64,000 bases of DNA from Halopelagius longus (GTDB taxonomy: Archaea; Halobacteriota; Halobacteria; Halobacteriales; Haloferacaceae): the NCBI RefSeq assembly GCF_900100875.1, contig NZ_FNKQ01000003.1, positions 620,001-684,000 of the forward strand, written 5' to 3'. Of this stretch, positions 5,509 to 20,147 are shown in pieces; the first letter of the stretch is position 1, and every line of letters begins with the position of its first letter. Below the pieces are notes generated by a model. It ran no database searches. It saw only the letters and a program-made list of their open reading frames with translations, and had not been told where the DNA came from. Both the position numbers and the translations under genes were made by a program.

Positions 5509-5578
5509 GTCCCGCGAACGAGCGTAGCGAGTGAGTGGGACAACATCGTGGCCGTGAGGCCGAGTGGAACGAGGCCGA

Positions 5579-5601
5579 GCGGGCACGATGGGATTTGAAC
5601 C
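5579..5601. repeat. Truncated tRNA-Arg 3'-end repeat, copy 2
   Basis: A 23-base stretch identical to 5671-5693, the 3' end of the tRNA-Arg gene through the TPsiC loop. After it, 5623-5645 holds a diverged inverted copy (about 15 of 23 positions match), so the region can fold back on itself. It looks like a duplicated attachment-site remnant or a decayed tRNA 3' fragment. Confidence 0.7.
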
Positions 5602-5671
5602 ACGGTCGCTCACTTCGCTCCCTGATTCAAATCCCGTACGCGCCGCTACTGCTCACTTCGTTCGCAGATAG

Positions 5672-5746
5672 CGGGCACGATGGGATTTGAACCCACGACC
5701 GTCGGATTAGAAGTCCGACGCTCTATCCGGACTGAGCTACGTGCCC
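5672..5746 (-). tRNA. tRNA-Arg (anticodon UCU)
   Basis: On the minus strand the 75-base gene runs from GGGCACG to CGTGCCC plus discriminator G, a perfect 7-bp acceptor stem. The D-arm contains AGCTC-AG, the anticodon stem is CGGAC pairing with its partner around the loop TTCTAAT, with anticodon TCT reading AGA/AGG arginine codons, and the TPsiC arm is the canonical GGGTTCAAATCCC. CCA is not encoded. Several partial copies of its 3' end lie immediately downstream of it. Confidence 0.95.
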
Positions 5747-5796: not shown

Positions 5797-6279
5797 CTAC
5801 CCGTCGAATCGGTACAGCGAGGTGACCGCGGGCAGGCGATTGAGCATCCACACCGCGACGGGGAGGCCGACGACGGTGCCGAAGGGACTTCGGCAGGCCA
5901 CCAGACGTAGTCTGGTGACGGTGACGGCGAGGAACGACGCCGCGTTCGCCCAGAGGAACCCGAGCCACCACCCGGCGAACACGAAGTACAGCGCCCGCAC
6001 GAGAAGCGAGCGCTGACCGCGGGCGGAGTCCGGGTCGGTCAGAGAGCGCGGTTCCTTCAGCGTCAGCACCGTCGGGACGAGGTTGACGAGTTTGACGCCG
6101 ACCGGCGCGAGGAAGACGGTCACGTTGAGTGCCCACGCGAGGTTGGCGACGAGGGGCGTCGCCCACCACCCGACGAGGACGAACCACAGAGCCCGGACGA
6201 CGAGAGAGCGGTCGTTTACGTCGGAAGACAGTCGCTCGAAAGGAAAAGGCTCGCCGGATGATGCCGGAAGGGAGGACAA
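5797..6279 (-). CDS. YccF-like (DUF307) membrane protein
   Basis: A 160-residue integral membrane protein with two similar halves: RALWFVLVGWW near residue 28 and RALYFVFAGWWLGFLW near 95. That duplicated pattern, with WxxN-type segments following, is the YccF/DUF307 inner-membrane family. About four membrane helices are predicted by hydrophobicity. The start is uncertain: the only upstream initiator is a TTG at 6279 and the conserved part begins about residue 21. A probable role in envelope transport is not established. It is divergent from the kinase-like gene, with a large palindrome between them. Confidence 0.75.
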   Translation of the reverse strand: MSSLPASSGEPFPFERLSSDVNDRSLVVRALWFVLVGWWATPLVANLAWALNVTVFLAPVGVKLVNLVPTVLTLKEPRSLTDPDSARGQRSLLVRALYFVFAGWWLGFLWANAASFLAVTVTRLRLVACRSPFGTVVGLPVAVWMLNRLPAVTSLYRFDG

Positions 6280-18584: not shown

Positions 18585-20147
18585 CTACTCTTCCTCGCCC
18601 AGCAGTCGGTTGACCATCCACTCGGGGTCGAACCGTTCGATGTCGTCGTAGTCCTGCCCGACGCCGAGGAACAGGATGGGCTTGCCCGTGACGTAGGCGA
18701 TGGAGATGGCCGCGCCGCCGTTGGAGTCGGCGTCGGCCTTCGTGAGGATTGCGCCGTCGATTTCGGCGGCGTCGTTGAACTTCTTGGCGCGTTGGACCGC
18801 GTCCTGTCCGGCGACGGCCTCGTCGACGAACAGCGTCATGTCGGGGTCCACCACCCGGTCTATCTTCTCCAACTGCGACATGAGGTCGTTGGAGGTGTGC
18901 AGTCGGCCCGCGGTGTCGCCGAGGACGACGTCGATGTCGTGGGCCTCGGCGAACTCGACGCCGTCGTAGAGGACGGCCGCCGGGTCGCCGCCCTGTTCGT
19001 GACTGATGAGTTTCTTGTCGAGGTTCTCGGCGTGCTTCTGAATCTGCTCGTTCGCGCCCGCGCGGTACGTGTCGCCGTTCGCGAGGACGGTCGAGAGACC
19101 GCGCTCCTCGAAGTAGCGCGCCATCTTCGCGATGGAGGTTGTCTTGCCGACCCCGTTGACGCCGGTGAAGATGATGGTGACGGGCTTGTCCGCCTCCTGT
19201 ACTCGCTCGTCGAAGTCGAACTGGCCGACGCTGATGACGTCGTAGAGGGCGTCGTGAAGCGCCTCCTCGACGAGTTCGCCCGTGGTGTCGACCTGGGCGC
19301 GCGTCTCGCCGATCATCTTGTCGCGGATGGTCTGGAGAATCTCCTCGGCGACGGTCATCTCCACGTCGCTCTCTAAGAGCGCCATCTCCAGTTCCCAGAG
19401 GGGGTCCTCGAGGTCCTCCTCCTCGATGATTATCTTCCCCGTGGCGAACGCCGCCGCGCGCTTCAGGCGGCCCGCGCCGGACTTCTTCTTCTCCTCCTTC
19501 TCGAGGGCCTCCGACGCCGCCTCGGAGGCGATGGACTCCCGTTCGGGCGACTCCGCGTCGTCGTCTGCGACCTCTTCGAGGTCCGGTTCGGGTTCCGCCG
19601 CCTCCGCGTCCGTCGCGGCCTCGACGTCATCGGACTGCGTCCGATGGGCCGACGAGCTTCGCTCGTCGACGTCGTCGGACTGGTCGGGCACCCGTTCTTC
19701 GGCCTCTTCGGTGGGTTCGGGGTCGGCGTGTAGCGACGCGTCCGCCGTCGCGTTCGGTTCGATTTCGACCTCCGAGTCCGACGTTTCGGATTCGGCTTCG
19801 GTCGCCGCCTCCTTGGCGGGGGACGCGTCCTCCGCGCCCGACGGGCCGACTGCCGACGCGGCGTCGGTGTCGGGGGCGCTTTCGGCCGACGAGTCGGCCG
19901 TCGGCGCTTCGGTGTCGGGTTCGGACGCCGCCTCGTCGGCGACGGCCGCCGACGCGTCCGAATCCGTCTCGGCCTCGCTCTCGACGTCGTCGCCAGACGC
20001 GGTCTGGCGGGCCGACGAACCCTGTTCGTCGACGTCACCGGACGCGGTCTGGTCGGCCGCCTCGGCTTGCTCCTCGGCTTTCTCCTCGGCGGTGTCCTCG
20101 ACGTCGTCGCGGAAGTTCTGGAGTTTCTTTTTCAGTCCGTCAAACAT
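18585..20147 (-). CDS. ftsY: Signal recognition particle receptor FtsY
   Basis: A 520-residue SRP receptor. Residues about 1-215 are a long, extremely acidic Ala/Asp/Glu/Ser-rich A-domain, much larger than needed for function, that probably contacts the membrane. The NG domain follows: P-loop GVNGVGKTTSIAK, NGDTYRAGANEQ, LGDTAGRLHTSNDLM, and the end EWMVNRLLGEEE. In the A-domain two peptides of the form VDE-x2-SSA-x2-T-x-S-x-DDVE recur; at DNA level they are two double-hairpin palindromic elements. FtsY docks SRP54-bound ribosomes at the membrane. Confidence 0.97.
   Translation of the reverse strand: MFDGLKKKLQNFRDDVEDTAEEKAEEQAEAADQTASGDVDEQGSSARQTASGDDVESEAETDSDASAAVADEAASEPDTEAPTADSSAESAPDTDAASAVGPSGAEDASPAKEAATEAESETSDSEVEIEPNATADASLHADPEPTEEAEERVPDQSDDVDERSSSAHRTQSDDVEAATDAEAAEPEPDLEEVADDDAESPERESIASEAASEALEKEEKKKSGAGRLKRAAAFATGKIIIEEEDLEDPLWELEMALLESDVEMTVAEEILQTIRDKMIGETRAQVDTTGELVEEALHDALYDVISVGQFDFDERVQEADKPVTIIFTGVNGVGKTTSIAKMARYFEERGLSTVLANGDTYRAGANEQIQKHAENLDKKLISHEQGGDPAAVLYDGVEFAEAHDIDVVLGDTAGRLHTSNDLMSQLEKIDRVVDPDMTLFVDEAVAGQDAVQRAKKFNDAAEIDGAILTKADADSNGGAAISIAYVTGKPILFLGVGQDYDDIERFDPEWMVNRLLGEEE
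19628..19668. repeat. Double-hairpin palindromic element, copy A (inside ftsY)
   Basis: Two perfect 8-bp hairpins in series: CATCGGAC-TGC-GTCCGATG (19628-19646), a 3-base gap GGC, then CGACGAGC-TTC-GCTCGTCG (19650-19668). The element is in frame within the acidic domain of ftsY. It has the same 8-3-8, 3, 8-3-8 geometry as copy B, with different stem bases. Confidence 0.85.
19991..20031. repeat. Double-hairpin palindromic element, copy B (inside ftsY)
   Basis: CGCCAGAC-GCG-GTCTGGCG (19991-20009), gap GGC, then CGACGAAC-CCT-GTTCGTCG (20013-20031). Both stems are perfect. Compared with copy A, both sides of each stem have changed together. A decayed half copy follows at 20038-20052 (CCGGAC-GCG-GTCTGG, one mismatch). 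Confidence 0.85.

Follow-up and report, generated by a model that had tools for sequence, protein, structure and literature searches.

The window, the whole 64-kb stretch of DNA that was analysed, carries an ftsY gene with two 41-nt elements in the acidic N-terminal domain, copies A and B (Table 1). Each element consists of two hairpins, H1 and H2, having an 8-bp stem and a 3-nt loop and separated by a GGC linker, exactly as an earlier note on this DNA had described them. The statements made there that all four stems are perfect, and that the stem differences between the two copies are matched on both arms, were confirmed directly on the sequence, as was the location inside the ftsY coding sequence. 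The "decayed half copy" placed at 20038-20052 does correspond to a decayed hairpin, but this is rather a whole 19-nt hairpin with two mismatches. The ftsY orthologue of the sister species lacks the entire copy B stretch including the decayed hairpin, about 21 residues, so the copy B insert amounts to about 45 + 18 nt. A mechanical scan of the 64 kb revealed a third perfect double with the identical 8-3-8/3/8-3-8 geometry, in the gene of a YccF-like small membrane protein. Eight perfect 8-3-8 hairpins were present in the 64 kb, six of them in the three double elements; the number of double hairpins expected by chance from base composition is about 8e-5 per 64 kb. Codon-preserving shuffles of the acidic domain of ftsY, which the earlier note had proposed as a check, gave any double in 12 of 20,000 cases against two in the real sequence, favouring an element. 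The computed fold of each window element was the double hairpin both as DNA and as RNA, and an Rfam search gave no match at the elements. A tRNA gene (Rfam match, 5680-5746) adjoins the yccF-like gene, and near copies of part of the tRNA (GGGCACGATGGGATTTGAACC) lie before it at 5560-5640, as an integration event would leave.

Table 1. Copies of the element in the window, their target duplications and their host genes (positions in the window)
Feature	Position	Strand	Description	Model match (E)
ftsY	18585-20147	minus	host of copies A and B, both within the acidic N-terminal domain	
Copy A	19628-19668	minus	H1 19650-19668, linker 19647-19649, H2 19628-19646	5.7e-11
Copy A, peptide reading	19628-19668	minus	VDERSSSAHRTQSDD	
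Copy A, left target duplication	19624-19628		ACGTC on the plus strand; base 19628 common to the 41-nt element	
Copy A, right target duplication	19669-19673		ACGTC on the plus strand; 45 nt from the left one	
Copy B	19991-20031	minus	H1 20013-20031, linker 20010-20012, H2 19991-20009	8.5e-10
Copy B, peptide reading	19991-20031	minus	VDEQGSSARQTASGD	
Copy B, left target duplication	19987-19991		TCGTC on the plus strand; 4 of 5 bases match	
Copy B, right target duplication	20032-20036		ACGTC on the plus strand	
Decayed third hairpin	20036-20054		adjoins copy B; 19 nt, 2 mismatches	
YccF-like small membrane protein gene	5797-6279	minus	host of the third copy; empty site in the sister species	
Third copy (yccF)	5877-5917	plus	antisense to the host gene; reads VTRLRLVACRSPFGT	1.2e-9
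yccF copy, left target duplication	5872-5876		GACGG	
yccF copy, right target duplication	5917-5921		GACGG	

A plain DNA search of the genome from which the window comes found copies in unrelated genes, a dispersal that is also a mark of RPE-like coding palindromes. In the model searches from which the copy counts were taken, a limited number of candidates was scored per genome. The first covariance model, built from seven copies found by plain DNA search or by a geometric scan, gave about 35 matches in this genome at E<1e-3, nearly all of exactly 41 nt, and 45 in the sister species of the genus, a few rows of both lists being two strands of one place; the rest of the family had 0-8 matches per genome at E<1e-5. 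The search of haloarchaeal genomes with such a model, suggested in the earlier note, was extended with a model of 56 copies, which had at least one match in 112 of 194 Halobacteria genomes at E<=1e-6 (24-29 places per genome in the genus, 1-10 in others). A reversed-sequence control model of equal composition and structure matched in none of the 194 genomes, even at 1e-3. Chance, or an origin as GC-rich repeat, was excluded by this control, the scan expectation and the codon-preserving shuffles. All genomes with a match in a phylum-wide search belong to the same order, and the two species of the genus had few insertion sites in common. Annotated public genes with a copy were merA on a Halorubrum trapanicum plasmid, reached through a search of plasmid proteins, and an AAC(3)-family gene of Halolamina sp. 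CBA1230. No element was found in viral contigs by a strict pattern, a weak negative since one mismatch defeats the pattern.

About 23 of the 29 copies inspected in the genome of the window were inside coding genes, according to heuristic gene calls. Coding copies there were about 19 in sense and about 4 in antisense orientation, all in one codon phase and free of in-frame stops, and the same trend was seen elsewhere. The common phase fits a target beginning on a GNC codon. Sense copies share the hydrophilic peptide VDExxSSAxxTQSDD, in agreement with the in-frame VDE-x2-SSA-x2-T peptides reported before. An acidic excess of 1.1 on average was obtained for the sense peptide, and averages between -2.5 and -3.9 for four of the remaining five frames; it is plausible, therefore, that copies were filtered for keeping the frame that suits a halophile. 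The predominance of sense copies with a peptide in common could also mean that the peptide itself is the conserved repeat and the hairpins a by-product of codon usage. However, this explanation, to which we give almost no credence, is refuted by the antisense copies, which read as other peptides and have perfect stems; stems moreover covary and lengthen on both arms, and a double hairpin almost never arises in codon-preserving shuffles. Since the antisense copies read as different peptides while their stems are perfect, it is the nucleic acid that is conserved rather than the peptide.

The insert, whose frame is open and which the protein alignments show as additional residues, may be translated and tolerated by the host protein. 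The proposal that the copies sit in a disordered region is too narrow: besides the acidic domain of ftsY, they are in a membrane protein and in enzymes, in the latter often where the length of the orthologues varies, and such sites look like surface loops. As an alternative, the insert might be skipped by the ribosome or removed from the mRNA, like the mitochondrial inserts of Magnusiomyces, to yield proteins without the 15 residues. The haloarchaeal inserts are of similar size, form hairpins, have short flanking direct repeats and are tolerated in conserved genes, but a stop-free and mostly acidic sense frame in one codon phase would be needless if they were skipped, and several are located at sites of orthologue length variation, which makes such a bypass extremely improbable.

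Seven genes of the same genome have a clean insert of 45 nt, or 15 residues, that is absent from all relatives examined: purC, tmcA, endA, tgtA, yccF, an FAH-family (fumarylacetoacetate-hydrolase) gene and a glucose/sorbosone dehydrogenase gene. The names of these hosts are a reading of their sequences, and for the yccF empty site the sister species alone was aligned. As with RPEs, the insertions are in frame relative to the orthologues, and the empty sites in these seven genes support the suggestion in the earlier note that the palindromic element is mobile or structurally selected and similar to the RPEs. The sister-species ftsY has neither window copy and carries one copy at another site, so that the alternative raised there, of residues retained in orthologues with stems drifting apart, fails. 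The earlier observation is real and was understated. In the sister species the FAH-family gene (L124) is lengthened where the insert lies too, but less, by five residues (VDETH; DNA GACGTTGACGAG); GACGTTGACGAG resembles the start of the element and is perhaps a deletion remnant.

The unit of about 40 nt comprises an 8-bp hairpin, a 3-nt linker and a 7-8-bp hairpin, with 3-nt loops. Column 41 of the alignment is always G, and column 23 is often A, in which case the outermost H2 pair is broken; column 41 therefore most likely belongs to a target duplication. A duplication of 5 bp with the consensus GRCGT was found in many copies, and a 40-nt unit together with it adds 45 nt or 15 codons, by which the frame is kept. 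Identity across the element at a spacing of 45 nt was far above that at other spacings (206 cells of 5-mer identity against 178 +/- 4.5, reached in 0 of 500 shuffles; flanks of different copies were paired as the control for the shared consensus). The duplication was exact in 15 of 56 copies, with 5.6 expected; examples are GACGT (dehydrogenase), GACGG (yccF), GACAC (FAH gene) and GGAGG (L045), and it was weak or absent in tgtA, endA and tmcA. The flanks carry a common GACG consensus, for which codon usage may partly account. A target duplication of fixed length, as in MITEs of DDE transposons, is thus present and statistically supported at 5 bp, being inexact in some copies; an autonomous relative with the same ends was not seen among the loci examined. 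Copying of the H1 arm from the target was considered and excluded, as the spacing-45 identity is near background inside the element.

Read on the strand that has H2 last, most loops are GNA triplets (GAA, GGA, GCA), those of the dispersed copies being mostly GAA or GGA, and the stem base is mostly C-G with no CCA tail. GNA loops make very stable DNA mini-hairpins. Among the 56 copies 95.7% of the stem cells were paired, 12 of 16 stem pairs had changes on both sides (144 double-change cells versus 48 in shuffles), and covariation was 0.442 versus 0.167 shuffled and <0.1 with the partner slid, with the caveat that most copies were found by the structure model and are biased toward paired ones. 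One stem has reached about 10 bp on both arms in several genomes to give 47-nt units; in the 47-nt variants of Halolamina and relatives (L161-L165, L208-L210) each arm of one stem has 3 additional nt. In six pairs of orthologous copies, which have about 85% identity in the flanks and are subject to the same detection bias as the family, there were three double compensatory changes, four single changes preserving the pairing and three single changes involving an unpaired state, and 13 of 180 stem positions were changed compared with 17 of 54 in loops and linker. This suggests, from a small and biased sample, that arm pairing is maintained in place after insertion.

The slower change of orthologous stems than of loops, and the mostly pairing-preserving nature of the changes, would also be expected of an RNA or DNA structure selected by the host for mRNA stability, translation pausing or chromosome organisation, with mobility secondary. 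We regard this as quite improbable, as the host genes have no function in common, the two species of the genus rarely share sites and most haloarchaea have few copies. Correction templated by the hairpin, a process considered for the coding palindromes of nematomorphs (PMC6649704), could preserve arm matching without any host function, but alone it would not slow stem change relative to loops.

In other genera, histidine kinases have tandem arrays at the N-box NLFRN-AVEHG, where 2-5 units follow each other at a strict period of 45 nt and H1 encodes VEHG. The stem sequences in these arrays (L218, L219, L228, L081, L230-L232, L158) differ by unit, each being paired. The kinase N-box may be a hot spot or the ancestral home of the units. 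Such arrays in several kinases, and the many kinase paralogues of haloarchaea, would agree with a family spread mainly by recombination from them, that is by gene conversion and not by transposition. This is very unlikely, however, since most copies are in unrelated genes whose flanks have no homology, and the clean 45-nt empty sites with 5-bp duplications require an insertion step. In genomes G002, G006 and G029, IS1341-type elements or deletion derivatives of them also carry the double hairpin at their right end (L063-L068, L080, L082), with eight identical copies in G006. If the double hairpin were the native right end, that is the guide-RNA region, the dispersed copies could be fragments scattered from there. 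Yet the same IS ends also exist without the hairpin pair, for example AAGCGCGTCGTTGAAACAGGAAGCCC in G029 itself; the pair was not found to be native to the IS1341/IS605 end and is a passenger inserted into the IS, so that we practically discount this origin.

Taken together with the pairing data, the insertions lead us to regard copies A and B and the yccF copy as probable members of a haloarchaeal family of palindromic elements that are mobile but non-autonomous. The elements insert at sites resembling GRCGT, in many copies with a 5-bp duplication of the target, so that each event adds 45 nt. The form recognised by the mobilising machinery may be the folded single strand, of DNA or RNA, which a trans-acting enzyme would join at a 5-bp staggered cut, and either selection for mobility or correction templated by the hairpin may preserve the matching of the arms. 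Tolerance by the host would follow from the absence of stops and the hydrophilic character of the sense frame in which the insert is usually read, and from the likeness of the surviving sites to variable loops.

Two hairpins in a short unit, strong covariation and loops mostly of the GNA type on one strand are also what a REPIN/RAYT-type system could produce, in which a Y1 (HUH) transposase of the IS200 kind, whose gene lies at another place in the genome, mobilises paired palindromes in single-stranded DNA form. No Y1 transposase (PF01797) was matched in the genome of the window or in the sister species, the two element-rich genomes, although the control was positive in Haloferax volcanii and Halolamina sp. 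CBA1230. Y1 transposition moreover predicts no target duplication, and the copies are mostly intragenic; this mechanism is strongly disfavoured and appears highly improbable. Likewise, no RVT_1 (PF00078) was found in the genome of the window, the sister species, Halolamina sp. CBA1230 or G003, with the control positive elsewhere. Mobilisation by Y1/RAYT or by RVT_1 was rejected, no such genes having been found in the two genomes of the genus; this leaves an integrase, of DDE type or other, or capture of the strand during break repair. A more far-reaching reading, which we hold tentatively, is that a hairpin pair as short as about 40 nt transposes through an enzyme that is neither Y1 HUH nor RVT_1 and has its arms actively kept complementary after insertion; a mobile element of this kind would evolve as a structure and not as a sequence.

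The haloarchaeal elements resemble the Rickettsia RPEs in being dispersed palindromes that lie in frame in conserved protein genes and would be translated as a tolerated peptide (PMC10969869, PMC2229807); both Rickettsia and Wolbachia are known to have palindromes of the protein-coding kind (PMC2229807). They differ in size, as the RPEs measure 105-146 bp (PMC2229807) and the haloarchaeal units 41-47 nt with two hairpins, and in having a 5-bp target duplication, which is not established for the RPEs. RPEs reportedly lose repeat identity over time (PMC6649704), whereas the haloarchaeal arms appear to be kept matched. The CGTC-tagged REP dimers, including RPE-4 and RPE-6, have 8-9-bp stems in dimers, are in part intragenic and have no associated transposase (PMC3733652), which is similar, but their loops of 4-5 nt, A-T stem base and CCA tails contrast with the 3-nt loops, C-G base and missing CCA found here; the survey of them names no archaeal host (PMC3733652). 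REPINs, too, consist of a pair of palindromes that moves as a unit (PMC3116915). They are extragenic and associated with Y1 transposases, whereas the haloarchaeal elements are mostly intragenic, have target duplications and abound in a genus with no Y1 gene found in its two genomes. The coding palindromes in nematomorph mitochondria are perfect inverted repeats in coding genes with arms apparently kept identical by conversion, but they reach 284 bp and are not described as dispersed insertions of fixed size (PMC6649704). By description only, the elements are also like the coding repeats of Methanocaldococcus jannaschii, which are archaeal, ORF-bearing and fused into protein genes; this organism is of a different archaeal class. 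Suyama et al. 2005 are said to have found these repeats to be palindromic. PMC2229807 cites Suyama et al. 2005 on coding repeats that are fused into archaeal genes.

The haloarchaeal elements were not reported in the REP, REPIN, PARCEL, RPE and MITE literature searched, most subscription journals being outside the search. The best reading, by analogy, is that they form a new family of mobile, palindromic and protein-coding elements comparable to the Rickettsia RPEs; as their length is outside that of the RPEs, they would be RPE-like in working and not RPEs in the strict sense. They would represent a widespread route by which a fixed 15-residue peptide is added to conserved archaeal proteins, with hosts that include FtsY, PurC, MutS, the tRNA-splicing endonuclease and histidine kinases, and thus matter for annotation and for the way proteins evolve. 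The old question of the mobility of protein-coding palindromes, and of what keeps the arms complementary, becomes testable with occupied and empty alleles now listed, along with a consensus of the target and a genome that has about 35 copies. If an enzyme does mobilise the 40-nt unit, it would be among the smallest known mobile elements.

Two loci show additional hairpins or adjoining copies. At L025/L007 (G000:C3:710674) a copy at the C-terminus of the protein is followed by a further perfect H1-type hairpin (TTGCCGAAC agg GTTCGGCAA), giving the order H1-H2-H1. An Orc1/Cdc6-like gene contains two adjoining decayed copies in its acidic N-terminus (G000:C3:742993-743091), which include VDGDERGGPSRGTQSDD.
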